Positions 961 to 30,197 of a DNA stretch of 47,496 bases are shown piece by piece. Every line of letters starts with the position of its first letter. Positions within the stretch are counted from its first letter, which is position 1. The stretch comes from Candidatus Desulfovibrio gallistercoris (GTDB lineage Bacteria; Desulfobacterota; Desulfovibrionia; Desulfovibrionales; Desulfovibrionaceae). Under the pieces are notes generated by a model. It did not search any database. It was not told where the DNA came from and saw only the letters and a list, made by a program, of their open reading frames with translations. The translations under genes were made by a program, and so were the position numbers. The stretch is taken from the NCBI GenBank assembly GCA_019118745.1, contig DWYJ01000051.1, forward strand, positions 1-47,496. Direction: 5' to 3'.

Positions 961-2373
961 CTACGCTTCCGCCGTTTGCTTCCGGTCCCGCTCAAAGGGA
1001 GGCGGCGGACGCCAGCGCCAGAACAGTAGGAGCAGGGGGACCAGACCGGCGAGTTCGGCCACTTCACGCCAGGTCACGAGAGAAAGTCCGTACCAGAGGA
1101 CAAGGCAAATTCCGATGGCCAGGAGCATGAGCGCCCACTGCCGCAAGCGCATGGGCCGGGCCACCCATTGAAAATACCCAACCGTCAGGATGGCCACCCA
1201 GACCTTGGTGATGGTGAGCGTGAGGGCCGCACCTTCCAGCGGCTGCCACGGGATGAGCGTCAGGCAGCAGATGTTGTTGACCACAAGCCCGCTCACGTAG
1301 AAGCCCAGCAGCAGGTTGTGCTTGCGCATGCCGATCATGGCATAGGCGGCCAGATTATGCAGGAAGGCCGTGGCCAGACAGGGCGTGAGCAGACGCTGCG
1401 CGGTGGAGGCATCCGCGTATTCCGGCCCGTAGATGAAGGGCAGGAAGCGGTCGCTTTCCACACAGATGAGAAAGATCACCGGCAGGGCGGCCGCCCAGAG
1501 CGAACGGGCCGTCTGACCGGCAAGTTGTCGGAAGGCTTCGCGGTTCTCCCGCCAGTAGCGGGCCAGCAGAGGGAAAATGACCTTGCCCAGCAGGGCGCTG
1601 GACACCAGGACGGAAAGCCCCTCCACCGTTTCCCAGGCCACGCTGTAGGCCCCTACCGCCTCAGGGGAACTGTTCCTGAGAAAGAAGACGTTGATCTTGT
1701 TATAGCACATGGTGCAGGCGGCCATGAGCGTGAAGACGACGCCGCTGCGCATCTTGACGGCCAGGTTCCTGACGGCGGCCCAATTCAGGCGCACCAGCGG
1801 ATTGCGTCCCAATGCGCAGACGGCGAGGACGGCGCAGCAGCCGGATTCCAGCGGCTTGTACAGTGCGATGGCCAGCATGGGGAACTGGAAGACCACGCAC
1901 ACGATCCCGTAGCCGATGCCGATGAGAGCCGAAGGGATGCGGATGCGCATCTCCACATCCTGTCGTCCGCGTGCCTGACACAGCGCGAAAAAGGAATCCG
2001 TCACGCCATCCAGGCCAAAGCCCGCGGCGATCAGCAGGACGACGAGGCGCTCCTCCAGCGGGTAGGGCAGGACAAGCGCCCAGGTGACCGCAAGCGCGAT
2101 GAACAGGAAACAGCACTTGAGCCATGTGACCTGCCCCAGCAATACGCGAGGCCGTCCGTCCCGGCGGGCAAAGGAGGAGAGCAGGAAGTCATTGAGCCCC
2201 ACGTCCGCGGCGGTCTTGACCAGATAGCCCGCCGCCAGCGCCGTGGCCAGCTGACCCATCATGTCCTTGCTGTAGCGGGCCAGCAAGATGGTGAAGATGG
2301 TCCACGAGAGATCCCGCGTCCACTGTGCGCCGAGGATGCAGCCCAGCTGCCGGGTAAGTCGGGTAAGCTTCAT
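961..2373 (-). CDS. MOP-superfamily lipid/oligosaccharide flippase (Wzx-like)
   Basis: A 470-residue polytopic membrane protein with about twelve to fourteen hydrophobic segments and a charged C-terminal tail (RWRPPPPFERDRKQ). The fold pattern is that of Wzx/RfbX polysaccharide flippases, which move lipid-linked glycans across the inner membrane; the N-terminal stretch with LARYSKDMMGQLATALA resembles their first two helices. It is the last gene of a leftward operon after a PKS-like protein, a TolC-like lipoprotein and an HlyD-like adaptor, only 5 bp beyond the adaptor. That position argues that it exports the product of the locus. There is no ABC or RND pump in the operon, so it is the only inner-membrane transporter candidate. 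Family assignment is firm; the substrate is inferred. Confidence 0.8.
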   Translation of the reverse strand: MKLTRLTRQLGCILGAQWTRDLSWTIFTILLARYSKDMMGQLATALAAGYLVKTAADVGLNDFLLSSFARRDGRPRVLLGQVTWLKCCFLFIALAVTWALVLPYPLEERLVVLLIAAGFGLDGVTDSFFALCQARGRQDVEMRIRIPSALIGIGYGIVCVVFQFPMLAIALYKPLESGCCAVLAVCALGRNPLVRLNWAAVRNLAVKMRSGVVFTLMAACTMCYNKINVFFLRNSSPEAVGAYSVAWETVEGLSVLVSSALLGKVIFPLLARYWRENREAFRQLAGQTARSLWAAALPVIFLICVESDRFLPFIYGPEYADASTAQRLLTPCLATAFLHNLAAYAMIGMRKHNLLLGFYVSGLVVNNICCLTLIPWQPLEGAALTLTITKVWVAILTVGYFQWVARPMRLRQWALMLLAIGICLVLWYGLSLVTWREVAELAGLVPLLLLFWRWRPPPPFERDRKQTAEA

Positions 2374-2378
2374 GCCCT

Positions 2379-3275
2379 CTACTTTTTGAAGAGAACGATG
2401 GCCTTGAAGCCGGGCTTCAGTTCAAGTGTCGGATTGGGCACCGTGAGCTCCACCGTGTAATAGGAGGGATTGCCGACGTTCATGTCCGTGGAAGCCCAGG
2501 AGATCTCGCTCACCGTGGCCGCAAATTCCTTATCCTGCAGAGAGGGGATCTGCACGGTGGCCACGTCGTCCACAGAGATGCTGTTGACGTCCGCCTCGTA
2601 CACGGGCACCCGGATGATCACCGGATTGAGCTGCCCCACGCTGACAGGCGGGAAGCCCGCCCCGAGCAGGGAACCGGGGCTCGCCTCCGCGGCCACGGAA
2701 AGGACGTAGCCGCTGATGGGCGAGGTGAGCGTCAGCGACTCGGGCAGCTCGCCGCGGGGATCGAGCTTTTGGCCAAAGTAGCCTTCGAGCTCCTTGAGCC
2801 GGGCGGCAAAGGTCTTTTCCCGCTTGTCGATGGCGAGCTTGAGCAGGTCGATGCGGCGCTGGATGCTTTCATAATTGGCTTCGATACGCGCGGAGGCCTG
2901 CCGCGACCCCAGACCGGACGCCGCCAGCTGCCGCGCCTTGTTGCGCTGCGCCTCGATCTCGCTCAGCTGCTGGCGCAGGGTCAGGATCTGGCTGCGTTCA
3001 CCTTCGGAGCCCGCGCCGTTGATCAGTTCGTGCCGCAGCACCCGGGCCGCCTCATCCTGGAGATGATAGCGCACCAGGGGCGCTCCCTGCTCCACGGCAT
3101 CGCCGGGCCGCACGAGCACTTCGTCCACGATGCCGTTGAAGGGCATGGGCGCGGCACGGGTCACCGTCGTGACCACCTTGCCGGTCAGACGGATCTCCGC
3201 CGCGGGAACGGCATGGACGGCACCCAGGACTACAAGAAGGGCCAGCAGGCCGGAACATAGTGTACGACGCATCAT
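2379..3275 (-). CDS. HlyD-like periplasmic adaptor (membrane fusion protein)
   Basis: A 298-residue secreted protein with a cleavable-looking signal (LLALLVVLGAVHAVPAAE). It then shows a first half-lipoyl motif (FNGIVDEVLVRPGDAVEQGAPL), given here as a locator, and a coiled-coil hairpin from about 85 to 165 rich in Q, E, R and L. The second half-lipoyl (LTSPISGYVLSVAAEASPGS) and a beta-barrel follow. These are the parts of adaptors that join an inner-membrane pump to a TolC channel. It is unusually short and lacks a C-terminal membrane-proximal domain of RND adaptors. The gene starts directly after the TAA of the TolC-like gene (zero spacing), with GGAG upstream, so the two are translationally coupled. 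Its pump partner is not an ABC or RND protein encoded here. Confidence 0.85.
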   Translation of the reverse strand: MMRRTLCSGLLALLVVLGAVHAVPAAEIRLTGKVVTTVTRAAPMPFNGIVDEVLVRPGDAVEQGAPLVRYHLQDEAARVLRHELINGAGSEGERSQILTLRQQLSEIEAQRNKARQLAASGLGSRQASARIEANYESIQRRIDLLKLAIDKREKTFAARLKELEGYFGQKLDPRGELPESLTLTSPISGYVLSVAAEASPGSLLGAGFPPVSVGQLNPVIIRVPVYEADVNSISVDDVATVQIPSLQDKEFAATVSEISWASTDMNVGNPSYYTVELTVPNPTLELKPGFKAIVLFKK

Positions 3276-4727
3276 TTATTCTCCACCGGGCAGCCCCAGG
3301 AAACTTTCCTGCAGCAGGCTGGCCACGTACATCCATTCGAGGTTGGCAAGGCGGTATTCCAGTTCCGCCTCGATAAGTTTGATCTGCGACTGGATCAACT
3401 TCTCCTGCTGCTTCGACACTACCGGCAGCTCGGCAAGGCCCTGATCGAAGGAGACCTTAGCCTCCGTATACTGCATCTTGGCGGTCTCTTCATTGAGCCT
3501 GGCCAGACGCAGATTGGTCTCGGCCAGGGACACGCGCTGCTCTGCCCGCAACCAGGTATTGGAGTAGTCCGTCCGCTGGCGGGCCTGCTGGTTGAAGGCC
3601 TGGGCCTTCTGCATGCGGGCCGTCTGCACGCCGCGGTAGCGCCGTCCCCAGTCGATGAGCGGGAAGTCAAAGGTCAGATGCAGGAAGGTGTCGTCCGTGC
3701 CGCCGACGGGCTGGGCCTGACCGGCCGGCGGATAGTTGTTGATGTCGATGCGCATGTCCGGCACATAAGCGGCCCAGGAGATCATGATGTTGTAGTCCGC
3801 CAGTTTGATCTGGCTGCGCAGCAGCAGATCGTCCTCGCTTTTGTCCCAGCGTTCTTCCCACTTGAGCTTGCGCCCGTCAAAGCCCTTGAGGATGGACTCG
3901 GCGGACTTGGTGTCCACGTTCAGCTTCTGCTGCGGATCCACGCCGGCCAGGATCTTCAATTCCGTCAACTGGATGACTTCCTGCATCTTGGCTTTTTCCA
4001 GGCGGATCTCCTGCTCCCGCTCATGCTGGGTGGCCAGATTGAGGGAAACCCCCTGACGGCCGTCCACGCTCTCGAGCTGCTTCCAGTAAGTGGTCATCTC
4101 CTTGGCCACGGGCAGGAGCTTTTCCTGCTCGGCAAGGATGAGACGCTGGGCGTGCAGGCGCATGTAGGCGCTGGCGATTTTGTAGATGGCCTCGCCCACG
4201 GCCTTGCGGTGCGTGGAGATGGCCAGATTGACCATGAGCCGCTGCACCTGATGCTCGAAATAGGTGGCGATGGGATTGGGGAAGGCCGCGTAAAAGCCCA
4301 CGCGCATCTTGGTGCGCCCGTAGTCGCCGGGTATGTCGGGCTCGTTCTTGTTGTAGGAAGTGAGGTTGTTGCTTACCGTCATGGTCATGCGCGGCTCAGG
4401 CAGATATTTCCAGATGGCATTGGTGAGCGCCAGCCGCTTGATCTCCAGATTCACCGCGCTGTTCACCAGAAGGGGAGACTGCTGGATGGTCAGATAAACG
4501 CAGTCCTCAAACGTGAACTTCTTGGCCGGGTCATACAGATTGGCCACCACGGCATCGAGCTTGCCCTTTTTTTCCACCGGGACGCCGGGCGTTTCTTCCA
4601 GCCAGTGCCGCGCCGGCAACTCCGGCGCATCCATGCCGGCCTTGCTGGACGCGCAGGCCGTCAACCCGGCTCCCAGGCACAGCAGGGCAACAGCCAACAG
4701 GCGACGAGTTCTTTTCATCTTCCCCAT
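3276..4727 (-). CDS. TolC-family outer-membrane efflux lipoprotein
   Basis: A 483-residue protein with an N-terminal lipoprotein signal (LLCLGAGLTAC, acylated Cys near residue 25). Two related long helical repeats are interrupted by short strands, as in TolC/CusC outer-membrane channels. The second repeat is clear: the FDFPLIDWGRRYRGVQTARM segment and following helix match the typical FDFPLFDWGR..I..A motif, and a long coiled helix rich in A, E, Q and R follows. It would form the outer-membrane and periplasmic tunnel for the HlyD-like adaptor encoded immediately downstream. It lies 29 bp after the PKS-like gene and is probably co-transcribed with it, which ties export to synthesis. Confidence 0.85.
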   Translation of the reverse strand: MGKMKRTRRLLAVALLCLGAGLTACASSKAGMDAPELPARHWLEETPGVPVEKKGKLDAVVANLYDPAKKFTFEDCVYLTIQQSPLLVNSAVNLEIKRLALTNAIWKYLPEPRMTMTVSNNLTSYNKNEPDIPGDYGRTKMRVGFYAAFPNPIATYFEHQVQRLMVNLAISTHRKAVGEAIYKIASAYMRLHAQRLILAEQEKLLPVAKEMTTYWKQLESVDGRQGVSLNLATQHEREQEIRLEKAKMQEVIQLTELKILAGVDPQQKLNVDTKSAESILKGFDGRKLKWEERWDKSEDDLLLRSQIKLADYNIMISWAAYVPDMRIDINNYPPAGQAQPVGGTDDTFLHLTFDFPLIDWGRRYRGVQTARMQKAQAFNQQARQRTDYSNTWLRAEQRVSLAETNLRLARLNEETAKMQYTEAKVSFDQGLAELPVVSKQQEKLIQSQIKLIEAELEYRLANLEWMYVASLLQESFLGLPGGE

Positions 4728-4756
4728 TCTCCTTGCACCCCAAAAACATCCGCCGC

Positions 4757-7700
4757 CTATTCCGGCAGATTTGGTTCGAATTCCATCTGATTGAGCGTCA
4801 ACAGCGGCTTTCCGCCGGCATCGCAGATCTGCGCATCGAAACGGCGGAGCTGTCCGGTCTGCCAGCCGCAGCGCAATTCCAGCACTGCCGCCTGACTATC
4901 GCCGGGCTCCGCAAAACGGATGAAGCCGATCCCCGTCATATGCCAGGTTGGGGCCCCGGCGCTGAAGAGCATCTCCTGCGCCAGCCACGCTCCCTGTTCC
5001 ACGGCATCGATCAACCGCAGGAGGCTTGTATATCCAGAAACGTCTTCCGGGGCAACGGCATCCTTGTCAAGGGCAAGCCGCAGCGTCGGCTGCGCTTCTT
5101 CACTGTCCCCGCCTGCCTTGAAAGACGGCCCGTCGGGCAGGACCTGCGCAAGCAAACGGGAGGGAGCACCGATCCTGCGGCGTTCATAAAATGCGGCAAG
5201 GCCGCCGTCCCGTTCGGCCCATATCCCTTCCGCAGCTCCGGCGGCAGGGCCGCTCCCCCAGAGGGCAGGCAGACCGGCGGCCGTACGCCCCAGCAGGGCC
5301 ATGCCTTCCATGACGGGCAGCCAGCGATCCGTGTGGCGGCCGTTGGCGGTCAGGCCGCGGGCTTCCAGACGGCAGTGGCACATGCGCGTCATGACGCTAT
5401 CCTGCTGCAACCAGCTCCGGGCGCGGACATCCAGACGCGTCTCCCGCGTGATCCCCGGCGGCAGGGGCAATGGCCCGCCCAGGCGAACGTCGCACAGGCC
5501 GTTGGGACACAGCCACGGGAAGGCGATGCGTGCGCCGTCGAGCAGGGCGCGCAGCGCCTGGCTCACCGGCAGACAGGGCAGCTCCTCCTCCGGCGTGCCG
5601 CCGCAACTGGACAGCCACGGCCGCGCGTAGCGCGAAAATTCTCCGCTCAGCAAAAAATCTCGTCCGGATGCCGTAAGGGGTGGCTGCTGCCGGGCGAACA
5701 GCCCCGGAAAGACGTCCGGACGCTCACGCCAGGGCTGCACACGCAGTCCGGCTTCCTGCGCGGCCTGCGGCAGAAGATCGCCGAGACATTCCGCCCGCGC
5801 CCACAGGACAGGCGTCTCGCAGGCAAGGAGGACCTCCCGTGCGAACATGTCCCCCCACTCCCCGGCAAGCGGCGGCAGACCGTCCTCCAGGATGCCCAGC
5901 ACGGCGGGACCGCCCTGCCCGCCGCAGGCGGCCGTGAAGGGCTCCAGTTCCTCCGGCTGGAACACACGGATGTGCCGCAGCCAGAGCGCCTCGTCCCCTC
6001 CCTGTTCACGCAACGCGCACAGGGCCTCAGCCTCGGCGTCCGTGCCGTGCAGACCGTCCAGCAAACAGCCGGAAAGCGGCGTGCCAGCTTCACGCAGGAG
6101 GGCCAGCCCGGCCCGCAAAAATCCCGCCGCGCCGCCTGCTGCCGCATCTTCTCCCGCTTCCGCCGGCGCTCCCGGACAGAGCACGGCGCAACCCAGCCGT
6201 TCCAGACGGCGGCAGGCCGCCTCGCAGACTGCTGGGACGACCAGGGTCTGCCCCAGCGCGGCCAGTCCTGCCAGCAGAGCGGCCGCACGCTGCCCGTCCT
6301 CGCTCCAGACCAGCACCGCGCCGCCGGGCCGAACGCCCGGACCGTGCGAGACGGGATCCCAGGCTGCCGGACGCCAATGCCCGTCAGCCGCGGGGGCGTA
6401 GCGCAGGAAGGGACGCCGGTCGAGCGCATCCGCCGGGCCCGTACGCGTGGCGGACGCGGTGTCCGGCGCGGAGGTTGCCGTGCCGGTAGCGGGGGCAAGC
6501 CCCACCGCAGCCAGCAGATCGCCCACCGTCAGCACCCCCATGAGCGCCTCGAAGGAGACGCTGCGGCCCAGCACCGCCTCCAGCTGCTGCACCAGCAGGG
6601 GGAAACGGCTGGAACGCAGGGAAAGATCATACCGCAAGTCCCATTGCGGCGTTACGCTTCCGGACGGCAGCCCCGCCGTTTCTTCGAGCAGGGCCACGAT
6701 CCGACGGGCCAGCGGCCCCAACGGCGGCATGGCGGCCGCCGCTTGCGGAGCGGGAGAGGCCTGCCCGGCAGCCGGGAGGACTGCGCCTTCCCAGCGGGCC
6801 GCGTGCGCTTTCAGGCCGGCGGCGGGGAGATGGCCCAGCGCATGGAGCTGCGCGCACGTCCGACGCAGGCCCTCGGCCTCATGCCCCTTGCGGGAAGCCG
6901 AGAGGCAGAGACTGCGCGGCTCGATGTCCGCCACCAGACCGCACAGGGTATCCTGCGGCCCCAGCTCCACGAAATGCCGTATGCCGTCCCGCGTCCACAT
7001 CTGCTGGACGCATTCCACCCAGCGCACGGCGTTCTCGTCGAGGTCGGCGATGTATTCACAGATGTCCCGCTGCGCGTGCGGATAAAAACCCGTGGTGACG
7101 CAGCTCAGCATGGGGAGCTGCGGTGGCTGCATGGCCAGTGCGTTGAGCCGGCGCAGGGACATGTCCCTGAGGACGCGCATGCCCGGATGATGGAAAGCCA
7201 GACTGACATTGAGCATGATGGCCGGCAGGCGCTGCTTGCGGAAATGCTTGCGGGCCTCCATGAGCATGTCGCGCGGGCCGCTGACGATATATTGCTTGGT
7301 CGTATTGTAATTGGAAACGTAGAGGGCCGGCCAGAGACGGCGCGCCTCCTCGATGAGCGGCGCTTCCGCGTGCACGGCCATCATGCCGGTCTCCCGCGTG
7401 GCGCGGGCTTCCAGCTCCGACATGTGTTGCGCGCGGGTATCGAGGATGTACCAGGCCGTTTCCGGCGCATAGACCCCCGCAAGGCAGAGGGCGATGAGCT
7501 CGCCCAGGCTGTGCCCGCACATCAGGGACGGTCTGAGCCCCAGCGAGGCCAGGTGGCTCCACTGCGCGTATTCCAGCAGGAAAAGATAGGGCTGCTGCCA
7601 GCGGGTGAGGCCGATCTTCTCCTCGTCGCGTTCGTCGAGCAGGGAGAGCACGTCCCAGTCGGCCACGGCGGCCAGACGGTCCATAGCCGCGCGGGCCGCC

Positions 7701-8455
7701 GGGAACTGATCGTAAAGTTCGCGGCCCATGCCCGGCCAGACGCTGCCCTGGCCGCAGCACATGACCGCCAGCGGTTCCGCCTGTCCGGCCCCCAGCCAGA
7801 CGCCTCGCTGCGCGAGATCTCGCAGCGCCGTCTCCCGCACGTCCGCCCCGGCGGCGAAGGGCGCGCGCCCGGCGGCAAGGAGCGATTCCCGCCAGTCGGG
7901 GCGGCAGGCCCCCATGCGCCAGGCCTGACCGGTCTCCGTGAGCTCCGTGCAAAAAAGGCCATCGACGGTGAACGGCGTCAGGGCGGCCAGCGCACGAGCC
8001 CGGCGGGCGTCCGTTCCTCTGCCCAGCAGCCAGAGGGCCCTCTGCCCGTCTTCCTCGTGATAGAAAAAGACGCACCCGGCCAGACTTTCGGAAAGCGCTT
8101 CGGACAGTTCACGCAAAAGCGCCGCGCTGTCGCGGCTGCCGGAGGCGAAGGCGCGCGCGTGCGGCTGCGGCAGCCCGGCGGCCTCGCAGGCGTCCGTCAG
8201 CGCGGCCAGGAGCTGCGCGGCTGATCCGTCCTGGACCGTGGCGCACCACCAGATATCCCGGTGTGCGAGGCCTTCGCGGAAGGTGCGGGCCTCATCGAGC
8301 AGGGCGGAGAGACAGGCCGGCAGCTCCCCCTCCGCAAGCGGCAGGGAACGAACTGCCACCAGAACAAGTGACACGGGCAGGGGGGCGATCTCATTCATGC
8401 TGATTTGCTGGGGAAAAGAGGGTTCTTCCTCAAGTATGCCAAGAACAGGTCCCAT
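4757..8455 (-). CDS. Ketosynthase-less PKS-like protein: acyltransferase, carrier, KR-like and DH-like regions
   Basis: A 1232-residue multidomain protein. After a poorly conserved N-terminal region, an acyltransferase runs from about 230 to 520. It has GQGSVWPGMGREL, the nucleophile motif GHSLGE near 313, NYNTTKQYIVSG and LAFHHPGM with the catalytic His; the xAFH form is usual for malonyl-type ATs. A carrier-protein region follows near 585-650: DLSLRSSRFP aligns with the DLGxDSxxxV phosphopantetheine site, keeping the Ser but replacing Asp by Arg. Next is a Rossmann-like stretch without a clear nucleotide-binding glycine motif (degenerate KR), then a C-terminal double-hotdog DH-like region from about 935. 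No ketosynthase is present. It heads the leftward export operon and diverges from the alpha-oxoamine synthase. The start is uncertain: ATG at 8398 (MNEIAPLP) is the alternative. Neither start has a good ribosome site. Confidence 0.75.
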   Translation of the reverse strand: MGPVLGILEEEPSFPQQISMNEIAPLPVSLVLVAVRSLPLAEGELPACLSALLDEARTFREGLAHRDIWWCATVQDGSAAQLLAALTDACEAAGLPQPHARAFASGSRDSAALLRELSEALSESLAGCVFFYHEEDGQRALWLLGRGTDARRARALAALTPFTVDGLFCTELTETGQAWRMGACRPDWRESLLAAGRAPFAAGADVRETALRDLAQRGVWLGAGQAEPLAVMCCGQGSVWPGMGRELYDQFPAARAAMDRLAAVADWDVLSLLDERDEEKIGLTRWQQPYLFLLEYAQWSHLASLGLRPSLMCGHSLGELIALCLAGVYAPETAWYILDTRAQHMSELEARATRETGMMAVHAEAPLIEEARRLWPALYVSNYNTTKQYIVSGPRDMLMEARKHFRKQRLPAIMLNVSLAFHHPGMRVLRDMSLRRLNALAMQPPQLPMLSCVTTGFYPHAQRDICEYIADLDENAVRWVECVQQMWTRDGIRHFVELGPQDTLCGLVADIEPRSLCLSASRKGHEAEGLRRTCAQLHALGHLPAAGLKAHAARWEGAVLPAAGQASPAPQAAAAMPPLGPLARRIVALLEETAGLPSGSVTPQWDLRYDLSLRSSRFPLLVQQLEAVLGRSVSFEALMGVLTVGDLLAAVGLAPATGTATSAPDTASATRTGPADALDRRPFLRYAPAADGHWRPAAWDPVSHGPGVRPGGAVLVWSEDGQRAAALLAGLAALGQTLVVPAVCEAACRRLERLGCAVLCPGAPAEAGEDAAAGGAAGFLRAGLALLREAGTPLSGCLLDGLHGTDAEAEALCALREQGGDEALWLRHIRVFQPEELEPFTAACGGQGGPAVLGILEDGLPPLAGEWGDMFAREVLLACETPVLWARAECLGDLLPQAAQEAGLRVQPWRERPDVFPGLFARQQPPLTASGRDFLLSGEFSRYARPWLSSCGGTPEEELPCLPVSQALRALLDGARIAFPWLCPNGLCDVRLGGPLPLPPGITRETRLDVRARSWLQQDSVMTRMCHCRLEARGLTANGRHTDRWLPVMEGMALLGRTAAGLPALWGSGPAAGAAEGIWAERDGGLAAFYERRRIGAPSRLLAQVLPDGPSFKAGGDSEEAQPTLRLALDKDAVAPEDVSGYTSLLRLIDAVEQGAWLAQEMLFSAGAPTWHMTGIGFIRFAEPGDSQAAVLELRCGWQTGQLRRFDAQICDAGGKPLLTLNQMEFEPNLPE

Positions 8456-8516
8456 AGTCCAGAGAGGCGGCGGCGGCGGGAAATTTTCCGGCCAGATGCG
8501 CGTCCCGGCAATTCAC

Positions 8517-8545
8517 TTGCCATATGCCGCCACATAAGTTACGCT
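8517..8545 (+). promoter_or_regulatory. Possible sigma-70 promoter of the rightward unit
   Basis: TTGCCA at 8517-8522 and TACGCT at 8540-8545 are separated by 17 bp, in the divergent intergenic region upstream of the oxoamine synthase. The -10 match is modest. The same 170-bp interval must also hold the leftward promoter. Confidence 0.3.
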
Positions 8546-8628
8546 GAATTGATACAAATTTGCAGCAAGGGGCGGAAGAGCCGCTCTCACCGAACCGTCC
8601 CCATACCTATTTTTAAGGATATGACAGC

Positions 8629-9924
8629 ATGAAAGACCCGCAAACCTCCCAGGCCGCCGCATCTGAAAGCGCCGCATCCGGCTTCAACCGCATGCGCTCC
8701 AAACTTTCATTTGCCCGTCTTGTGGAAATGGGCGCCAAGATGGGCCTGGACAACCCCCTCTTTCTCTGCCATGACCGCGCCGCCAAGGCGACGGCCCAGA
8801 TAGACGGCAAGGAATATCTCAACTTCTCCACCTACGACTATCTGGATCTCAACACGCATCCGGAGATCACCGAAGCCGTCACCGAGGCCGCGCGCCTCTT
8901 CGGCTCCTCCGCCGGGGCCAGCCGCCTTGTGGGTGGGGAGCGTCCGCCGCACCGCCAGCTGGAGCAGGCCGTCGCCCGCCTCTATGGCGTGGAGGACTGC
9001 ATCGCCTATGTGAGCGGCCATGCCACCAACGTCTCGACCCTTGGCTTCATGTTCGGCCCGCGCGACGCCATCTTCTACGACGGCCTGGCCCACAATTCGC
9101 TCATGCAGGGGGCGCGTCTTTCCGGGGCGGAGCGCTATTCCTATACCCACAATGACTGCGACGCGCTGGAAAGCCTGCTCAAGGCCCATCGCGAGAAGCA
9201 CAAGCGCGCCGTCATCGTGACCGAAGGGCTGTTCAGCATGGACGGGAACATCCCGGACCTGCCCCGCCTCATCCGCCTCAAGAAGCAATACGACTGCATG
9301 CTGCTCGTCGACGAGGCGCACTCTTTCGGCGTGCTTGGCGCGACGGGCCGCGGCGCGCACGAGTATTTCGGCATCGATGCGCACGAAGTCGACATGTGGA
9401 TGAGCACCCTCAGCAAGAGCATGTGCGGCTGCGGCGGCTTCATCGCGGGCAGCAGCGAGCTCGTTGAGTTCCTGCGCTACGGCTCGCCGGGCTTCGTGTT
9501 CAGCGTCGGCATGCCGCCCATCGTTGCCGCTGCCTGCAACAAGGCCCTCGAACTCATGCTGCGCGAGCCCGAACGCGTCCACAAGTTGCAGCGCATCAGC
9601 CAGTATTTCCTAGAATATGCCCAGAGCAAGGGGCTGGATACCGGCGCGGCCCAGGGCTACGCCATCGTGCCCGTCATGGTGGGAGACTCCATGGCCGCGG
9701 GCTTCCTGGCCAATCTCCTGTTCAAGCGCGGGCTCTACGTCATGCCCATCACCTTCCCGGCCGTCAAGGAAGGGGAGGCGCGCCTGCGCTTCTTCCTTTC
9801 CGCCGCCCATTCCGAAGAGCAGATCCGGCAGGCGCTGGACGCCGTGGCGGAAGAGCTGCCAAGGGCACGGGAGATCGTCGCCAACTACAAGCGGGAACAT
9901 ATCGAGGATCCCGCGGACGACTAA
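8629..9924 (+). CDS. PLP-dependent alpha-oxoamine synthase (AONS/SPT/CqsA-like)
   Basis: A 431-residue fold-type I PLP enzyme of the alpha-oxoamine synthase family (KBL, BioF, serine palmitoyltransferase, CqsA). Members condense an amino acid with an acyl thioester and lose CO2. Seen in the sequence: NFSTYDYLDL at the start of the catalytic domain, GSSAGASRLVGG, the cofactor Asp and ring-stacking pair in DEAHSFGVLG (D228, H231), and the Schiff-base lysine K263 in STLSKSMCGCGG. A 70-residue N-terminal extension precedes the core. AAGGAT lies upstream of ATG 8629. No biotin or threonine-catabolism genes are nearby. Instead it diverges from a PKS-like protein with its own carrier domain and precedes glycosyltransferases. 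An acyl-ACP substrate and a sphingoid-like or amino-ketone product are therefore likely, though inferred. Confidence 0.85.
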   Translation: MKDPQTSQAAASESAASGFNRMRSKLSFARLVEMGAKMGLDNPLFLCHDRAAKATAQIDGKEYLNFSTYDYLDLNTHPEITEAVTEAARLFGSSAGASRLVGGERPPHRQLEQAVARLYGVEDCIAYVSGHATNVSTLGFMFGPRDAIFYDGLAHNSLMQGARLSGAERYSYTHNDCDALESLLKAHREKHKRAVIVTEGLFSMDGNIPDLPRLIRLKKQYDCMLLVDEAHSFGVLGATGRGAHEYFGIDAHEVDMWMSTLSKSMCGCGGFIAGSSELVEFLRYGSPGFVFSVGMPPIVAAACNKALELMLREPERVHKLQRISQYFLEYAQSKGLDTGAAQGYAIVPVMVGDSMAAGFLANLLFKRGLYVMPITFPAVKEGEARLRFFLSAAHSEEQIRQALDAVAEELPRAREIVANYKREHIEDPADD

Positions 9925-10066
9925 AGCGTTTTGCCGTTGAAAAGGCAAAACGCGAGGCGGCGGCACAACGCCGCCCGGCCTGACGTGGATGGAAAAACCG
10001 CATTTTTCCGCACAACGTCAGGCCGCAGGGTTTGAAACGCCTTGCGCTTCAAACCGAACATGCTCT
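9925..10066 (+). repeat. Family A stacked-hairpin repeat, copy A1
   Basis: A 142-bp intergenic repeat that starts directly after the oxoamine synthase stop codon. It folds as successive hairpins: GCGTTTTGCC/GGCAAAACGC, then GGCGGCG..CGCCGCC, GGAAAAACCGC/TTTTTCC and TTTGAAACGC/GCTTCAAA. It is closely similar to copy A2 at 12521-12663 and, inverted, to A3 at 22721-22861. It contains no gene. It could be a transcript-stability or attenuation element inside the operon. Confidence 0.75.
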
Positions 10067-10139
10067 AGCTGCCGGGGCCAGGGCGGCGACGCCCCGGCCC
10101 TTCCTCTTTTTCCGGCCGTTGAGCCGCTCAGGAGTCGCC

Positions 10140-11480
10140 ATGTCCACGGATCCCGTCACGCCTTCCTCTGCCTCACCGGACTGCGGCCTGTCGAGACGGT
10201 TGCCTCGGACGGCCTACGTGCTGCTCTGGTTCCCGCTTTCTTCCGAGACCTTCATCTTCCGGGAAGTGCAGCGCCTCGCCGCGCTGGGCATGCCCCTGCG
10301 CGTCTATACCATGTACGGCAAGCAGCTCAGGGGCAGCAGCGAGGAGATGCGCCGGTGCCCGCTGCCGGTCATGCGGCTGGGCACACGGGCCACCTTCCGC
10401 ATCCTCGGCGCCTTCTTCCGCGCGCTGCGCCGCGACCCCGGAGCAGTCTGGAAGCTCATGCGCGAAGGCCTCTTCCGGCGCATGCGCAATCTGGAAGCGC
10501 TGGGGGAAAACGTCTGGTGCTTCCTGGCCGGTTTCCTGCTGGCCGAGCAGGCGCGGCGCGATCAGGTGGAGCTGCTGCATTCGGCCTGGGGCAACGGCTG
10601 CGCCACGGCCGTATGGGTGGCCTCGCGGGCATCGGGCATCCCCTTTGCCTTCACCGGCCGGGCGGGCGACATCTATCCCCAGGACGGCATCCTGCGCGAA
10701 AAATGCCGTGATGCCCTGTTCATCCGCACCAACAACATGGCCAATGTGCCGTGGCTGCAAAGCTTCTGCCCGGACGACGAGCAGGACAAGGTGCATGCCG
10801 TCTACAATGGCCTGACCCTTGCCCAGCGCACGGAATGCGAGATGCCCTTCACGCCCCCCTATCGCCTGCTGGCGGTGGGGCGCTTTTGCCGCACCAAGGG
10901 CTTTCCCGAACTGCTGACCATGATGGCCCGCCTGCGCCGGGAAGGGCTCCCCGTCCAGCTCACTCTGGTCGGCGACGGCGGCTGGCGGCGCAAGCTGCAC
11001 GCCATGCGCCGCCGCCTGGGTCTCGAAGGCGTGGTGGACATGCCGGGTTTCGTGCCCAATGACCGCATACGAGAGTACATGCGCAGCCACGACATGCTGG
11101 TGGTGCCCAGCGTGGTGCATACCAACGGCGACCGGGACGGCATCCCCAACGTCATCATGGAAGCGCTTTCCTGTCGCATGCCGGTGGTGGCCACCGACGT
11201 TTGCGGCATTCGGGAAGTGGTGGAAGACGGCGTGACCGGCCTGCTGGTCCCCCAGCGCGATCCCGCCGCTCTGGCCGATGCCGTCCGCCGCATGCTTTCC
11301 GACAGGGAGGCCGCGCAGCGCATGGCCGAGGCCGGGCGTGAGCGGGTGCTGCGCATGTTCGACAGCGAGACCACCATCCGGCAGCTGGCGGAGCTCTATG
11401 CCGACCAGTATGACGACTGGAAGGCCTCCCGCCCCGATGTCTGGCTTTTTACCCGCGGCCTGCCGCCGCAGGACGACTAG
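10140..11480 (+). CDS. GT4-family glycosyltransferase
   Basis: A 446-residue retaining glycosyltransferase with two Rossmann-like halves. The N-terminal acceptor half begins LLWFPLSSETFIFREVQRL. The C-terminal donor half has LLAVGRFCRTKGFPELL, LVGDGGWRRKL, and VHTNGDRDGIPNVIMEAL followed by CRMPVVATDV, the GT4 nucleotide-sugar region with the final Glu of the EX7E motif (the first Glu is Asp). I chose ATG 10140 because CAGGAG precedes it; an in-frame ATG at 10032 lies within repeat A1 and would add 36 unlikely residues. A paralogue is encoded at 12681. It sits in the rightward unit and probably adds a sugar to the lipid or oligosaccharide made here. Donor and acceptor are unknown. Confidence 0.85.
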   Translation: MSTDPVTPSSASPDCGLSRRLPRTAYVLLWFPLSSETFIFREVQRLAALGMPLRVYTMYGKQLRGSSEEMRRCPLPVMRLGTRATFRILGAFFRALRRDPGAVWKLMREGLFRRMRNLEALGENVWCFLAGFLLAEQARRDQVELLHSAWGNGCATAVWVASRASGIPFAFTGRAGDIYPQDGILREKCRDALFIRTNNMANVPWLQSFCPDDEQDKVHAVYNGLTLAQRTECEMPFTPPYRLLAVGRFCRTKGFPELLTMMARLRREGLPVQLTLVGDGGWRRKLHAMRRRLGLEGVVDMPGFVPNDRIREYMRSHDMLVVPSVVHTNGDRDGIPNVIMEALSCRMPVVATDVCGIREVVEDGVTGLLVPQRDPAALADAVRRMLSDREAAQRMAEAGRERVLRMFDSETTIRQLAELYADQYDDWKASRPDVWLFTRGLPPQDD

Positions 11481-11486
11481 GACGAC

Positions 11487-12521
11487 ATGGGCCGACCGCT
11501 GTTGTGGCTGGCTGCCAGCCTTGATGTGGAAGAAGAGGGCCTCTTCGGTGGGAAGTACGTCTGCCGCGCCCCTTCGCTGCGCAATACGGCCTTCCTGAGC
11601 CGTCTGGCCCCTCTGCTGGAGCGCGGCCTGCGGCCCACGCTTTTCTGTACGCACTGCGCGCTGACGGACGCGCCCACCCAGGCCATGCTCGCCCGCCTGC
11701 GGGACAGGCACGGCGCGGAGATCGCGGCCCATCTGCACTTCTGGAACACGCCCCCGCTGGCGGACGACGGGCCGGACGTCCTGTCCCGCGTGCCGGCCGC
11801 GGCGCTGGGGCAGGGAGCCTTCCGGGCCAAGCTCCGGCAGCTGCTGGCCGCCGGGGAGGCCTTCCAGGGCGAGGCCCTGCGCTCTTTCCGCATGGGCCGC
11901 TGGGATCTGCACCGCCATCATTGGCCGGTGCTCGCGGAACAGGGCATCACCTGCGACGCCTCAATACGGCCGCTGCACGGCCCTGCCGCCGATGCCCACG
12001 GGCTGCGCCTTCGCCCGGATCATTTTTCCGCGCCGCGCACGCCCTATCTCGTCCGCACCGCCTGCGGCGACATCCTGGAAGTCCCGCTCTCCGTGACGCC
12101 TCTGCTCAAGACGCTGCCGGCCCTGCTTGACCGGCTGCCCGCCGCGCTTCGGCAGCCGGCCGTGAGCAGCTATTTCCGCTGGGGAGCGCTGACCCTGCTG
12201 CCCGTAGAGCATCCGCTCCGGGTCATGCAGTGCATGACGCGGCGTTTCGTGGCCGCCGGAGGTCGCATCCTCAGCCTGACCTGGCATTCGTCGGAAATGA
12301 TGCCCGGCGGCGCGCCCCACATGCCCGACGAGGGGCACGTCACACGCTTTCTTGAAAAAATAAAAAAATATATCGAATGGTTACCGACGATAGGCGACCT
12401 GCGCTCCGTCACCATGCAGGAGATCCGGCGTGAACTGCCGACCTGCCCCGCACCCCTGCCCCCGGCCACGGCGGACTGGAGCGTTCTTCCCACGGAATCA
12501 TTCTCCGATTCTCCCCCTTGA
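11487..12521 (+). CDS. NodB-like polysaccharide deacetylase-family protein
   Basis: A 344-residue protein related to the carbohydrate esterase 4/NodB fold. SLDVEEEG near residue 10 corresponds to the metal- and acid-bearing DxE motif. EIAAHLHFWNTP matches the EIxxHxxxH motif in a modified form, and SFRMGRWDLHRHHWPVLAEQ resembles the R-x-G-R-W segment of glycan-cluster members. Near the C-terminus, LTWHSSEM supplies the late His. The gene starts 7 bp after the first glycosyltransferase and ends at 12521, where repeat A2 begins. Likely role: removal of N- or O-acetyl groups from a glycan intermediate in the same pathway. Cytoplasmic placement is suggested by the lack of a signal peptide. Confidence 0.7.
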   Translation: MGRPLLWLAASLDVEEEGLFGGKYVCRAPSLRNTAFLSRLAPLLERGLRPTLFCTHCALTDAPTQAMLARLRDRHGAEIAAHLHFWNTPPLADDGPDVLSRVPAAALGQGAFRAKLRQLLAAGEAFQGEALRSFRMGRWDLHRHHWPVLAEQGITCDASIRPLHGPAADAHGLRLRPDHFSAPRTPYLVRTACGDILEVPLSVTPLLKTLPALLDRLPAALRQPAVSSYFRWGALTLLPVEHPLRVMQCMTRRFVAAGGRILSLTWHSSEMMPGGAPHMPDEGHVTRFLEKIKKYIEWLPTIGDLRSVTMQEIRRELPTCPAPLPPATADWSVLPTESFSDSPP

Positions 12522-12663
12522 GCGTTTTGCCATTGAAAAAGGCAAAACGCGAGGCGGCAGCACAGCGCCGCCCGGCCCAAAGTGAGCGGAAAAACCGCGT
12601 TTTTCCGCGAAACGACAGGCCGTATGGTTTGGAACGCGAAGCGTTTCAAGCTAAAAATGCTCT
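12521..12663 (+). repeat. Family A stacked-hairpin repeat, copy A2
   Basis: A 143-bp copy in the same orientation as A1, starting at the last base of the deacetylase stop codon and ending 17 bp before the next gene. It keeps GCGTTTTGCC..GGCAAAACGC, GGCGGCAGCACAGCGCCGCC, AAAAACCGCGTTTTTCC and GAACGCGAAGCGTTTC. Both A1 and A2 fill gaps between genes that are otherwise closely packed in one unit. Confidence 0.75.
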
Positions 12664-12680
12664 TGTGTCCAGGAGGTTGC

Positions 12681-13976
12681 ATGTACACGACTCTCCCCGC
12701 CGATGAAAAGGCGCCTCTGCCTGCGGGCCTGCCGCATGTGGCGGTCATCCTTCTCTGGTACCCGCTGTTTACCCAGCCCTTCATTTTTCGGGAGGTGGAG
12801 CAATTACGCCGCCACCTGCCGCTGACGGTCTACAGCCTGTACGACCATAACCAGCGCTGCTGCTCCAGCGAGATGCGCGCCGCCGCCTCCGGCACCCGGA
12901 CGCTGGGCATGCGCGCCCTGCCGCAGATCCTCCGCGAGCTGGCCGTCCAGCTCTGCACGCACCCGCTCCGTCTCGGCCGCCTGTTCCGGCAGGCGCTCTT
13001 CCATCGCTGGCCGTCCTGGGAAGCGCTGGGCGAAAACTGCTGGGCCTTCTTTGCCGGGCTCTATCTGGCACGGCGTTTCCGGGAAGACGGCATGGACATG
13101 ATCTATGCGCCGTGGCCGCGCGGCACCGCCACAGCCGCCCGTGTGGCCTCGCAACTGGCCGGCATCCCCTACGCCGTCGCCGTGCGCGGCGACAATCTGG
13201 CCCCGGCCGATCCCGATCTGGCCGACAAGCTGCGGGAGGCCCTGTTCGTGCGCGTCAACAACGCCGCGGATCAGGAACGCACGGAGGCTTTCGGCAACGG
13301 AGAAGCGCGGGGCAAGACGCACCTCGTCTACAACTGCCTGACGTTGTCCGGCGGGTCCACCTGCCCGGCCCGCCTGCAGATGCCCGTACGCCTGCTGGCG
13401 CTGGGCCGCTTTGACGTGACCAAGGGCTTCGACGTGCTGCTGCGGGCCTGCGACATCCTGGCCCAGCGGCAGCAGCAGTTCACGCTGACCCTGGCGGGCG
13501 GGGGCGGTCATCTTTTCGGCCTCGGTAAGGAAGAGAAGCGCCTCCAGACCCTGCGCTCGCAGCTGGGGCTGGAGAACCGCGTCCAGTTCCCCGGTCTCGT
13601 CAGCCACAACGAGCTGCCCCGTCTGCTCATGGCGCACGACATCTTCGTGGCTCCCTGCGTCATCCACGCCTCCGGCCGGCGGGACGGCATCCCCAATACG
13701 GTCATCGAGGCTCTTTCCTGCGGCATGCCGGTGGTCAGCAGCAACATCCATGCCCTGCCCGAAGTGGTCCGCAACGGCGAGACCGGCCTGACGGTCCCGC
13801 CCAATGACCCGGATGCCCTTGCCGACGCCATACAGTGGTGCATGGAGCACCCGGAGGAAGCCCGGCAGATGGGCAGGCAGGGGCAGGAGCTCGTCAGGAA
13901 GATGTTCGATCCCGAGACCAACTGCCGCGCGCTGGCGGAACTCTTTTCCGCGCACCATGCCCGGAGGAAGGCCTGA
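12681..13976 (+). CDS. GT4-family glycosyltransferase, paralogue of the 10140 gene
   Basis: A 431-residue glycosyltransferase of the GT4 fold. The opening LLWYPLFTQPFIFREVEQL is clearly homologous to the first glycosyltransferase of this unit. Donor-half motifs are LLALGRFDVTKGFDVLLRA, LAGGGGHLFG and RRDGIPNTVIEALSCGMPVV. ATG 12681 has a strong AGGAGG four bases upstream; an upstream in-frame ATG at 12582 lies inside repeat A2 and is rejected. Its stop codon overlaps the amidotransferase start by one base (TGATG), so the two are translationally coupled. It probably adds the second sugar of the product. The two paralogues look like an old duplication with diverged acceptor halves. Confidence 0.85.
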   Translation: MYTTLPADEKAPLPAGLPHVAVILLWYPLFTQPFIFREVEQLRRHLPLTVYSLYDHNQRCCSSEMRAAASGTRTLGMRALPQILRELAVQLCTHPLRLGRLFRQALFHRWPSWEALGENCWAFFAGLYLARRFREDGMDMIYAPWPRGTATAARVASQLAGIPYAVAVRGDNLAPADPDLADKLREALFVRVNNAADQERTEAFGNGEARGKTHLVYNCLTLSGGSTCPARLQMPVRLLALGRFDVTKGFDVLLRACDILAQRQQQFTLTLAGGGGHLFGLGKEEKRLQTLRSQLGLENRVQFPGLVSHNELPRLLMAHDIFVAPCVIHASGRRDGIPNTVIEALSCGMPVVSSNIHALPEVVRNGETGLTVPPNDPDALADAIQWCMEHPEEARQMGRQGQELVRKMFDPETNCRALAELFSAHHARRKA

Positions 13977-15874
13977 TGTGCGGCATAGCGGGCATTTGCC
14001 TCTGTGACGGCGCAGGACTGCCGGAAAACACGGCGCAGAGCGTGGACGCCATGTGCCGCGCCATGCGGCATCGCGGGCCGGACGGACAGGGCGTCTGGAG
14101 CGGGAACGGCGTCTGCCTGGGGCACCGCCGCCTGTCCATCATCGACCTTGCCGGCGGCGCACAGCCCATGCACAGCCCCGATGGCCGCTATCATGTGACC
14201 TTCAACGGCGAGATCTACAATTTCCCTGAGCTGCGCAAGGAGCTGGAAGCGCAGGGCCTGTCCTTCCGCACCACCTCGGACACGGAGATCATCCTTGCGG
14301 GCTGGCAGGTCTGGGGCCGGGACTGCCTGGAACATTTTGACGGCATGTTCGCCTTTGCGCTCTGGGATGCGCAGGAAAAGCGCCTCTTCTGCGCGAGAGA
14401 CCGTTTCGGCAAGAAGCCCTTCTTCTATACGCTCCAGCAGGGCCGCTTTTTCTTCGCCTCCGAACTGACCGCGCTCACCGCCCTGCCGGAACTGACCTTC
14501 ACGCTCTCGCCCGAAGCCCTCATGCGCTATCTGGCCTATGAATACGTGCCAACGCCGCAGACCATGTACGCCGAAGCAGCTTCGCTGCCGCCTTCGCACT
14601 GGCTGGAACTGCACGAAGGCCGGTTGCGGGTGGAGCGCTACTGGGATCTGCCCTTTCCCGACGAGCGGGACGCCCGCAGCGAGGAGGAGATCTGCGCCGC
14701 CTACCATGAGCTGCTGGCCCGCGCCGTCCGCCGCCGCATGATCAGCGACGTGCCGCTGGGGGTCTTCCTTTCCGGCGGCATAGATTCCTCCATCGTGGCC
14801 GGTCTCATGGCCAGCCAGTCCGCCACGCCCATCAAGACCTTCTCCATCGGCTTCCAGGAAGCCAGCTACGACGAGAGCCACTATGCCCGCATCGTGGCCC
14901 GGCGCTGGGGCACCGATCACCACGAACGCATCCTTTCCGCCGAAGAATGCGCCGAACACCTGCCGCAGATCATCAGCCGCATGGACGTGCCGATGGCGGA
15001 TGCCTCGGTGGCCCCCACCTGGCTGCTTTCCGGCGTCACCCGCGAAAAGGTCACTGTGGCCCTGGGCGGCGACGGCGCGGACGAACTGTGGGCAGGCTAC
15101 GAACACTACATCGGCTATAAGGTCGCCACCTGGTACAACGCCCTTCCGTCCGTTCTGCGGCGCGGGCTCATCGAACCGCTTTGCCGCCTGCTGCCGTCCT
15201 CGTCCGGCTACATCAATCCGCGCCTTGCCGTGGAGACCTTCCTGCGCGGCGCGCATGCACCGGACTGGCTCCGCGTGCAGACGCTGCTGACGGCCCTTGA
15301 GCCGGCGGCCCAGCGCGAACTGCTGGCCCAGCCCGACGATGCCTTCCTGACGGATGCGCGGCTCTTCGCGCCCACCCGTGAACATTTCGAGCACTGGCCC
15401 GCCGGGCCCGGCCCCCTGGCCCGCGCCTTCCACGTCTATGCCCGTCAGTATCTGCTGGACGACATCCTGGTCAAGGTGGACCGCTGTTCCATGCTGCACT
15501 CTCTGGAAGTGCGGGCCCCCTTCCTGGACAGAGACGCCGCGGAATTCACGGCGCGCCTGCCCATCCGCCACAAGCTGCACGGCTTCAAGCGGAAATACCT
15601 GCTCAAGCGGGCTTTTGCCGATGTCCTCCCTCCGGAGATCCTGCACCGCAACAAGCGGGGTTTCCAGATCCCCGTGGCCGCCTGGCTGCGCGGACGCATG
15701 CGGCCGTTGCTGGAGGAGATGCTCGGCGAATCCCGGCTGCGGCAGCAGGGCATCTTTGCCCCGCAGGCGGTACGTGCGCTCATGGAGGCCCATTTCAGCG
15801 GCCGGGCCGACATGCGCAAGCAGCTCTGGACCCTGCTCGTGCTGCAACTCTGGCTGGAAGCCCAGCGGCGCTAG
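13976..15874 (+). CDS. asnB: Glutamine-hydrolysing asparagine synthase-family amidotransferase
   Basis: A 632-residue class II glutamine amidotransferase with the catalytic Cys directly after Met (MCGIAGIC), TFNGEIYNFPEL, and RFGKKPFFY at the end of the glutaminase half. The synthase half has the ATP PP-loop SGGIDSS near residue 266 and LGGDGADELWAGY. Members of this family in glycan clusters amidate uronic acids or other carboxylates rather than aspartate, and this copy ends a glycan-type unit. That suggests such a role, but true asparagine synthesis cannot be excluded. The start is fixed by the catalytic Cys; an upstream in-frame GTG-type extension would bury it. Confidence 0.85.
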   Translation: MCGIAGICLCDGAGLPENTAQSVDAMCRAMRHRGPDGQGVWSGNGVCLGHRRLSIIDLAGGAQPMHSPDGRYHVTFNGEIYNFPELRKELEAQGLSFRTTSDTEIILAGWQVWGRDCLEHFDGMFAFALWDAQEKRLFCARDRFGKKPFFYTLQQGRFFFASELTALTALPELTFTLSPEALMRYLAYEYVPTPQTMYAEAASLPPSHWLELHEGRLRVERYWDLPFPDERDARSEEEICAAYHELLARAVRRRMISDVPLGVFLSGGIDSSIVAGLMASQSATPIKTFSIGFQEASYDESHYARIVARRWGTDHHERILSAEECAEHLPQIISRMDVPMADASVAPTWLLSGVTREKVTVALGGDGADELWAGYEHYIGYKVATWYNALPSVLRRGLIEPLCRLLPSSSGYINPRLAVETFLRGAHAPDWLRVQTLLTALEPAAQRELLAQPDDAFLTDARLFAPTREHFEHWPAGPGPLARAFHVYARQYLLDDILVKVDRCSMLHSLEVRAPFLDRDAAEFTARLPIRHKLHGFKRKYLLKRAFADVLPPEILHRNKRGFQIPVAAWLRGRMRPLLEEMLGESRLRQQGIFAPQAVRALMEAHFSGRADMRKQLWTLLVLQLWLEAQRR

Positions 15875-15944: not shown

Positions 15945-15988
15945 GGAAAGGAAACGCTCTCGCGGCGTAACCATTGCAAGGAGCCTGC

Positions 15989-16864: not shown

Positions 16865-16891
16865 CGGCACGTGCGCCGCAAAGGAGACCCC

Positions 16892-17311
16892 ATGATCCGT
16901 CAGAGCCGCCTTTTTGTCCTTCTTTGTCTCTGCTGCCTTGTCCTCTCGGCCTGTACCGCACGGCAGAAGCAGACGGACACGCTCTTTCCTGAAGATTGCG
17001 AAAAGACCTATACCTTCGCGCCGGGCAATTACATCATAGAGATCGCCGGCGGTTCGGAAGTGGTGCTTGATCCGCTTGTCCATGACTTCCATCTGTTCTG
17101 CACGGCCGATCAGGCCAGGGACTATGTGCTGGAAGAGATCAGCAGCCACCGTCTGCCGCGCGGCGACTGGCGGGTGTACGTGGTGGGCGGCAACTTCCAG
17201 GAGCTGGCCCAGCCCGCGGGCAACGGCACCTTCGTGCTCAAGCGCATGGCCCCGCTGGTGGACTGGGTGTCGGAGATGCCGGTGGGCAACCTGCGCTACG
17301 TGGAACCGTAA
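16892..17311 (+). CDS. Small lipoprotein of unknown function
   Basis: A 139-residue protein with a lipoprotein signal, LFVLLCLCCLVLSAC, and an acyl-accepting Cys at residue 21. I do not recognise the mature domain, which is rich in beta strands and ends VGNLRYVEP. ATG 16892 has AAGGAG upstream. It follows htpX by 27 bp and could be read from the same promoter, making an envelope-quality connection possible. A strong terminator at 17380 closes the pair. Confidence 0.75.
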   Translation: MIRQSRLFVLLCLCCLVLSACTARQKQTDTLFPEDCEKTYTFAPGNYIIEIAGGSEVVLDPLVHDFHLFCTADQARDYVLEEISSHRLPRGDWRVYVVGGNFQELAQPAGNGTFVLKRMAPLVDWVSEMPVGNLRYVEP

Positions 17312-26711: not shown

Positions 26712-26889
26712 GGTTACTCCGAAATGACGTCCTGACGCCAATAGCGCGCCGTAAAATTGCAGCTTAGCCGCATCGGCCCGGAAACTCAAGCGCGGCGGGC
26801 CGCAGAGGGGCGGGGGAGAAGGCTCGGAGCCAGCTGCCTGAATGACTGATCCAGGGCTTTCTATGGTGTCTGCGAAAGAAAATCATAAC

Positions 26890-27362: not shown

Positions 27363-27363
27363 C

Positions 27364-27667: not shown

Positions 27668-27708
27668 AGAGAACGTATCCGGAACGCGCAAATGATGCGC
27701 CGGACTCG

Positions 27709-30127: not shown

Positions 30128-30149
30128 GCAGCCATCTCCGCATCTTCCC

Positions 30150-30187: not shown

Positions 30188-30197
30188 TCCCGCCGCC

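Follow-up and report, generated by a model that had tools for sequence, protein, structure and literature searches.

A ketosynthase-less polyketide synthase relative and an alpha-oxoamine synthase in a genus-wide Desulfovibrio locus predicted to build and export an amino-lipid

What might a bacterium make with a polyketide synthase (PKS)-type protein that has no ketosynthase (KS), an alpha-oxoamine synthase (AOS), sugar-handling enzymes and envelope export proteins, all encoded in two divergent operons? The question is raised by bp 961..15874 of contig DWYJ01000051.1 (assembly GCA_019118745.1, Candidatus Desulfovibrio gallistercoris, a genome of 3.15 Mb), which lie in the 47,496-nucleotide stretch analyzed here (the window). 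The answer preferred here, with about an even chance of being right, is that the locus would make and export an alpha-amino-ketone (sphingoid-like) lipid, mostly amidated and glycosylated with one or two sugars, using borrowed fatty acid enzymes. Its gene content, its genus-wide co-conservation, the absence of a KS from the PKS-type protein and the kinship of that protein to KS-bearing PKSs are established by the comparisons that follow. The nine open reading frames (ORFs) of the locus agree with the gene list of an initial annotation made from the sequence itself, and Pfam and NCBIfam matches back most of the names given there:

961..2373, minus strand: Wzx-like flippase, Polysacc_synt_3 (Pfam PF13440, E 9e-14)
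2379..3275, minus strand: short HlyD/RND-type periplasmic adaptor (PF16576 (HlyD_D23)/PF13437 (HlyD_3); signal peptide judged by eye)
3276..4727, minus strand: TolC-type outer-membrane lipoprotein (OEP) (PF02321, E 3e-21; lipobox LTAC seen by eye in the translation)
4757..8455, minus strand: KS-less protein of 1232 aa with acyltransferase (AT), acyl carrier protein (ACP), dead ketoreductase (KR)-like and dehydratase (DH)-like parts (PF00698, E 2.6e-34, its sole Pfam match)
8456..8628, no strand: divergent intergenic region, 173 bp
8629..9924, plus strand: AOS, BioF/Kbl-type (TIGR00858, 352.7 bits, below the cut-off of 426.45)
10140..11480, plus strand: GT4 glycosyltransferase (GT) 1, EpsE-like (PF00534, E 1e-38; start inferred)
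11487..12521, plus strand: NodB-like putative deacetylase (sub-threshold matches only)
12681..13976, plus strand: GT4 glycosyltransferase 2 (PF00534, E 2e-36; start inferred)
13976..15874, plus strand: AsnB-type glutamine amidotransferase, N-terminal MCGIAG (PF00733, PF13537, TIGR01536; start inferred)

The leftward operon thus runs from the KS-less protein through the TolC-type lipoprotein and the HlyD-type adaptor to the Wzx-like flippase, with 29, 0 and 5 bp between successive genes, and the rightward one runs AOS, GT4, NodB-like, GT4, amidotransferase, the last two genes overlapping. The true starts of both GT4 genes and of the amidotransferase gene probably lie later than those of the longest ORFs, in the last case because relatives show stops upstream of ORF residue 48. 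A promoter scan detected no sigma-70-like site in the 173-bp divergent region, and the counts of the promoter/terminator scan are near chance.

The gene set is no chance arrangement, as the same set recurs genus-wide. The sample of the order comprised 297 genomes, 62 of them from the window's genus; the two halves, whose failure to co-occur was named by the initial annotation as fatal to its interpretation, are found together in 61 of the 62, even in genomes that have them at separate places, such as G015 and G005 (L021/L086 and L048/L087), and are rare elsewhere in the order. The KS-less family is present in 61 same-genus genomes (the window's own included) and in two further genera of the family: in G168 and G234 (genus g33) and in G283 (genus g50), where the contig end (L080) is too near to exclude a KS; the sole same-genus miss, G298, has the KS-less gene at a contig edge beside the AOS (L190). 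An AOS at 66-100% identity is likewise found in 61 of the 62 (only G027, an 80%-complete genome, lacks it); G168 and G234 have it too, so that both sampled g33 genomes carry both halves. The AOS is the divergent neighbor of the KS-less gene in 21 of 35 regions of an unselected set; the 27 adjacent cases among 36 AOS loci are not a fair share, since nine of the 36 were fetched because the AOS lay apart. Among the named carriers of both halves are D. piger strains ATCC 29098 and PG-251, Desulfovibrio sp. ZJ369 and OH1186_COT-070; D. piger has a compact seven-gene version (L095) in which the AOS operon is AOS-GT1-amidotransferase, with one GT and no NodB-like gene. The reduced genomes G154 and G036 (1.4 and 1.6 Mb) keep both operons with no stops within genes (those in one amidotransferase alignment fall upstream of the inferred start). 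These two genomes appear to be 'Ca. Desulfovibrio trichonymphae' and 'Ca. D. kirbyi' (ZnDsv-02), respectively, ectosymbionts which are both described as having lost several lipopolysaccharide (LPS) genes (PMC7608387). The locus is a genus-wide feature of Desulfovibrio and its close relatives. Genome G007 has two AOS operons (L035 and L044), each with a KS-less gene, whose AOS proteins are 71 and 76% identical to that of the window; they are either paralogs or the mark of a mixed bin.

The 1232-aa protein had been described in the initial annotation as a KS-less protein with AT, carrier and KR/DH-like parts. Its features are as follows:

7775..7966, minus strand: KS-to-AT linker remnant (residues about 164-227)
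6920..7774, minus strand: AT domain (residues 228-512; Ser316, Arg341, His422)
6491..6703, minus strand: carrier domain (residues about 585-655; motif DLRYDLSLRSSRFP, Ser615)
5711..6388, minus strand: KR-like region without glycine motif, dispensable
4760..5698, minus strand: DH-like double hotdog (active-site column Cys951)

The description as KS-less is borne out: the window protein has no Pfam match to a KS domain, and its conserved stretch begins at the KS-AT linker. Homologs were aligned as the best 120 of 377 matches (P0010, which is almost identical to the window protein, was omitted), and no KS domain is listed for any of the 120; the search was confined to proteins between 0.55 and 1.75 times as long as the query, and KS-bearing relatives, which were beyond its reach, were found by other searches. 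The AT catalytic residues are nearly invariant (Ser316 and Arg341 in 120/120, His422 in 119/120), as is the carrier serine, Ser615 (120/120). The carrier domain itself has no Pfam match in the window protein, and the call is made because the motif is conserved and PP-binding domains are listed for many homologs; the DLRYDLSLRSSRFP form of the motif occurs in all seven full-length (KS-bearing) relatives and in none of three highly reducing PKSs checked. The AT, the carrier and the DH-like part of the original description thus stand, and its KR does not: neither the window protein nor the homologs printed have kept the nucleotide-binding glycine motif, and the whole KR-like region is nearly gone in eight of the 120, which retain the AT, ACP and DH-like parts. 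A first reading of the window sequence, that the DH is dead throughout the family, is ruled out, since the DH-like active-site column keeps His in 98 of 120 homologs (Cys in 15, the window included), with Glu/Asp in 102 and Gln in 103 at the other positions; this part aligns with the DH of a full PKS at an hhalign probability of 98.8 (pairwise E 5.5e-17). An AF2 model of residues 151-1232 has a pLDDT of 84.4 (a single-sequence AlphaFold model, pLDDT 36.7, was not used). Foldseek/VIA match lists are dominated by the AT domain, so families missing there are not excluded, and the KR-like and DH-like fold calls come from alignment, hhalign and the model's secondary structure, with no fold match of their own. 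By the criteria for a type I PKS, the AT Ser-His pair and the carrier serine are present and a KS and a working KR are absent.

Where did such a protein come from? Relatives of its AT lie in PKSs of about 2430-2660 aa, within the family in other genera (L074-L078) and outside it in Thermodesulfovibrio, Desulfuromonadales and Geobacter (L115-L117; the L117 PKS is cut by the contig end). Pfam finds NMO (enoylreductase (ER)-type), KS, AT, ACP, KR and DH in two such PKSs, and the KS active-site motifs are intact in all seven KS-bearing relatives checked. In the AT tree, the KS-less ATs group together (100/100), and a wider clade (100/100) unites them with the KS-bearing PKSs; the tree has a long-branch warning, and support for the KS-bearing group is only 79/40. 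The carrier motif (D/N)(L/I)RxDLx(I/L)RSSR(L/F)P is common to the KS-less and KS-bearing proteins. The KS-less form was probably derived by KS loss, because its clade falls together with KS-bearing PKSs and the linker remnant is kept.

The KS-bearing clusters have informative neighbors. Eight such loci have GNAT genes (8/8), phosphopantetheinyl transferase (PPTase) genes (7/8), an epimerase-type reductase (5/8) and serine palmitoyltransferase (SPT) (3/8: L074, L116 and L117; that of L116 scores 552.6 of 640 bits on NF047600). This company lends indirect support to the 'sphingoid-like' product of the initial annotation, which is itself a prediction. In genome G211, one stretch (L074 1 to 19901, continued in L198 1 to 16287) holds a MacB/FtsX permease, an ATP-binding cassette (ABC) ATPase, TolC, HlyD, NodB-like, GT4 and Wzx genes, and resembles a more complete form of the window's locus (identities to the window proteins: TolC 23%, HlyD 28%, NodB-like 34%, GT4 33 and 45%, Wzx 39%); an amidotransferase homolog is shared as well. 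The ER-KS-AT-ACP-KR-DH clusters thus resemble the window in AT clade, carrier motif and, in G211, these accessory genes, but they retain the KS and have PPTase and GNAT genes; those with SPT use another AOS group than the window, and ABC genes are present in L115, L116 and G211. Loci L115-L117 combine a PfaA-like PKS with a GNAT gene, L116 and L117 also with SPT, and L115 and L116 also hold PPTase, an ABC exporter and a phosphoethanolamine-transferase-like gene; they are candidate PKS-fed sphingolipid loci.

A dedicated KS elsewhere in the genome was considered as a partner and rejected: seven of 31 same-genus genomes at least 95% complete (G009, G010, G025, G026, G036, G220 and G224) have a single KS by PF00109, a count that does not include KS III (FabH type), and the lone KS ORFs are FabF-sized (418-496 aa). 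Any extension on the carrier in these seven must hence come from a FabF-like enzyme; otherwise, without such extension, the AOS would be the only C-C bond-forming enzyme of the system. The window's own genome (G000) has two KSs, the second of which (L189 7111-9628, contig C33; open frame of 422 aa) adjoins a BioF-like gene, perhaps in a biotin or fatty acid operon.

The AOS falls below all NCBIfam AOS cut-offs, and passes none of three curated SPT models (290.8/640, 256.1/500 and 190.2/670 bits). Its clade is supported 97/99 (the tree leaves out L181, which has a stop in frame), and all 14 rows of the clade have the motifs STLSK (Lys263), VDEAHS and LRFF, which hold the pyridoxal phosphate lysine, the Asp/His pair and the carboxylate-binding Arg of an AOS. 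It is 49-63% identical to AOS proteins adjoining reducing PKSs, which have the same active-site motifs, versus 32-33% to the SPTs of L116 and L117. The 36 matches in the 49-63% range were rejected as members of this system, since all 13 loci examined (L071-L073, L079 and L180-L188) adjoin a reducing PKS, with the Pfam domain order KS-AT-DH-MT-ER-KR-ACP (MT, methyltransferase) in L071 and L072. Such a pairing is known as SgaAB(C) in Pseudomonas fluorescens MYb115, where SgaB, the AOS, has SPT activity with serine and SgaAB makes sphinganines (PMC12134224); this is a second indirect argument for a sphingoid-like product. The window shares with it a PKS-type protein paired with an AOS. SgaA, however, is an iterative chain-building PKS, whereas the window protein lacks a KS and a working KR; no gene of the 3-ketodihydrosphingosine (KDS) reductase type is seen among the window ORFs scanned, and glycosylation and envelope export genes are added. 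The main text of PMC12134224 has no word beginning 'Desulf'. The 13 reducing PKS-AOS loci of the order also contain GNAT (8), short-chain dehydrogenase/reductase (SDR) (7), sulfatase-fold (6) and KpsC/S-type (5) genes, and possibly make PKS-derived sphingolipids, some tied to capsule.

Two other systems offer partial parallels. In prodigiosin synthesis, PigH carries malonyl on its ACPs and, with a KS in trans (PigJ) and serine, forms 4-hydroxy-2,2'-bipyrrole-5-methanol (HBM) (PMC6667630). As predicted for the window, a malonyl-loaded carrier there serves an AOS while the KS is on a separate protein; PigH differs in joining its ACPs and AOS in one protein with a dedicated KS, whereas in the window the AT is built in, the AOS is separate, and single FabF-sized KSs are found in the seven genomes listed above. 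In Rhodobacteria, a specialized carrier likewise serves the SPT, in that case through separate ACP and acyl-CoA synthetase genes rather than an AT-ACP-DH-like protein (PMC9386255). No prior description of the locus was seen in the titles and abstract openings of the matches listed by an open-access literature search, which also returned no paper pairing Desulfovibrio with oxoamine synthase and none joining oxoamine synthase, capsule and polyketide synthase.

The aminolipid pathway preferred here would proceed as follows. The AT of the 1232-aa PKS remnant would load malonyl onto its own carrier, as is suggested by the invariance of the AT Ser and Arg and the carrier Ser; housekeeping FabF and FabG would supply the chain or extend it once, because a KS and a working KR are lacking; and in most species the DH-like domain would act on the last unit. 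The AOS would then free the chain by condensing it with an amino acid under decarboxylation. To judge by their families, the GT4s and the NodB-like protein would add and trim sugar, an optional step, the AsnB-type enzyme would amidate a carboxylate, Wzx would flip the product, and HlyD-TolC would carry it across the periplasm.

The sugar genes invite a different view, in which this is a polysaccharide or O-antigen-type locus. An amidated surface glycan would then be the product of the GT4s, the NodB-like protein, the amidotransferase and Wzx, and the AT-ACP and AOS would contribute only a small acyl or amino-ketone substituent. The closest GT and amidotransferase models are indeed of the exopolysaccharide (EPS)/XrtA type (EpsE, TIGR03108), though all matches are below the cut-offs; the amidotransferase reaches 610.9 bits against 816.9 for TIGR03108, its nearest special model, and 516.7 bits, above the cut-off of 267.1, for the general TIGR01536. 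Homologs of the amidotransferase, GT1 and Wzx also lie near the KS-bearing PKS in L076, L077 and G211. However, no polymerase, initiating GT or Wza/Wzc is present among the window ORFs scanned, and downstream of the AOS the sugar genes vary (GT1 in 24, NodB-like in 30 and GT2 in 32 of 34 loci) while the amidotransferase is constant (34/34) and TolC, HlyD and Wzx adjoin the KS-less gene in 34 of 35 same-genus regions (the exception, L035, is a contig end). The downstream counts come from 36 AOS loci (34 same-genus and two of g33, G007 counting twice), from which L040 and L055 were dropped as contig ends. A glycan locus is rather unlikely; and since the amidotransferase is constant where the sugar genes vary, its substrate may be the AOS product and not a sugar. 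'Glycosylated', as the initial annotation had it, would be apt for most loci and not for all, and its 'deacetylase' is putative: the NodB-like protein retains the NodB-like conserved D/H residues, and no family match is above threshold (the best are DUF3473 at E 0.0033 and, from the PDB, a polysaccharide deacetylase at E 0.1). The export genes are unusual in that Wzx, instead of an ABC pump, stands beside HlyD and TolC; no ABC pump was found among the window ORFs scanned with Pfam, the adaptor and channel being present, and joint action of the three is predicted. HlyD matches at E <= 1e-15 occur in 37/37 same-genus genomes (the window's own included) and in 0/24 other genomes of the order.

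Chemistry like that of PigH would lead elsewhere: FabF would join acyl and malonyl on the carrier, the beta-keto group would be kept, and the AOS with serine would give a 3-hydroxypyrrole-type lipid head and no sphingoid base. The precedent of malonyl-loaded ACPs with a KS in trans (PMC6667630), the loss of the KR motif in all homologs printed and the want of a KS of its own are in its favor, but the DH-like site conserved in most homologs would be left without a role in most species, and one homolog record (P0157) bears the name PigH by automatic naming only; this outcome seems very unlikely. It is equally improbable that the KS-less protein catalyzes nothing and serves as a scaffold or persists as a decaying relic, with the AOS using ordinary acyl-CoA or ACP, for although the protein's KR is dead, its KS lost, its AT GQG glutamine altered in most homologs and its C-terminal half largely poorly conserved, the AT Ser/Arg and the carrier Ser are invariant, and AT and carrier are kept even in the 1.4-1.6 Mb genomes.

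Several observations weigh against the aminolipid pathway. The product itself is putative. At the DH-like active site, the window protein has Cys, unlike most homologs, which have His, and the AT GQG glutamine is replaced by Leu in 81 of 120 homologs, a change that may alter AT activity. GNAT, KDS-reductase-type SDR and PPTase genes, unlike in the KS-bearing clusters, are absent from the window ORFs scanned with Pfam; CerR/bCerS homologs are absent from the scanned ORFs as well, a genome-wide search not having been made. The AOS tree leaves the sister group of the window's clade unsettled, and the AOS does not adjoin the KS-less gene in 14 of the 35 regions, some of them contig ends. The AOS locus of G010 lacks GT and NodB-like genes, its amidotransferase directly following the AOS. 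Finally, the ABC pump of G211 is missing from the window, and TolC and HlyD identities of 23 and 28% do not establish a common origin of the two sets of export genes. The interpretation of the initial annotation is, on balance, partly supported.

A bolder version of the aminolipid pathway is unlikely to be right. In it, Desulfovibrio would have reduced a PKS to an AT-carrier-DH module without a KS, which depends on FabF and FabG for one round of extension and then passes the chain on to the AOS. The resulting surface aminolipid, peculiar to the genus, would have an unusual head group: a Delta-4-unsaturated amino-ketone or, with a dead DH as in the window, a hydroxypyrrole. It would be amidated by AsnB and exported by Wzx-HlyD-TolC without an ABC pump, and would matter enough to have been retained by protist ectosymbionts that lost LPS genes. 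Sulfidogenic Desulfovibrio species are common in the gut, and their surface lipids have been little described. If the aminolipid reading holds, the exported amino-lipid would be a new surface molecule encoded by a core locus specific to the genus, and the locus would show a megasynthase shedding its chain-building domain and living off fatty acid synthesis; the compact locus of D. piger ATCC 29098 permits direct testing.

Beyond the amidotransferase gene, the window encodes an M48 metallopeptidase and a 146-aa protein (15974-17311). Both are also found after the amidotransferase gene at many related loci, the M48 gene at 21 of 34. The G+C content of the window falls to 0.55 at 26001-28000 and 0.53 at 30001-32000, against 0.63-0.70 in the remaining 2-kb blocks.

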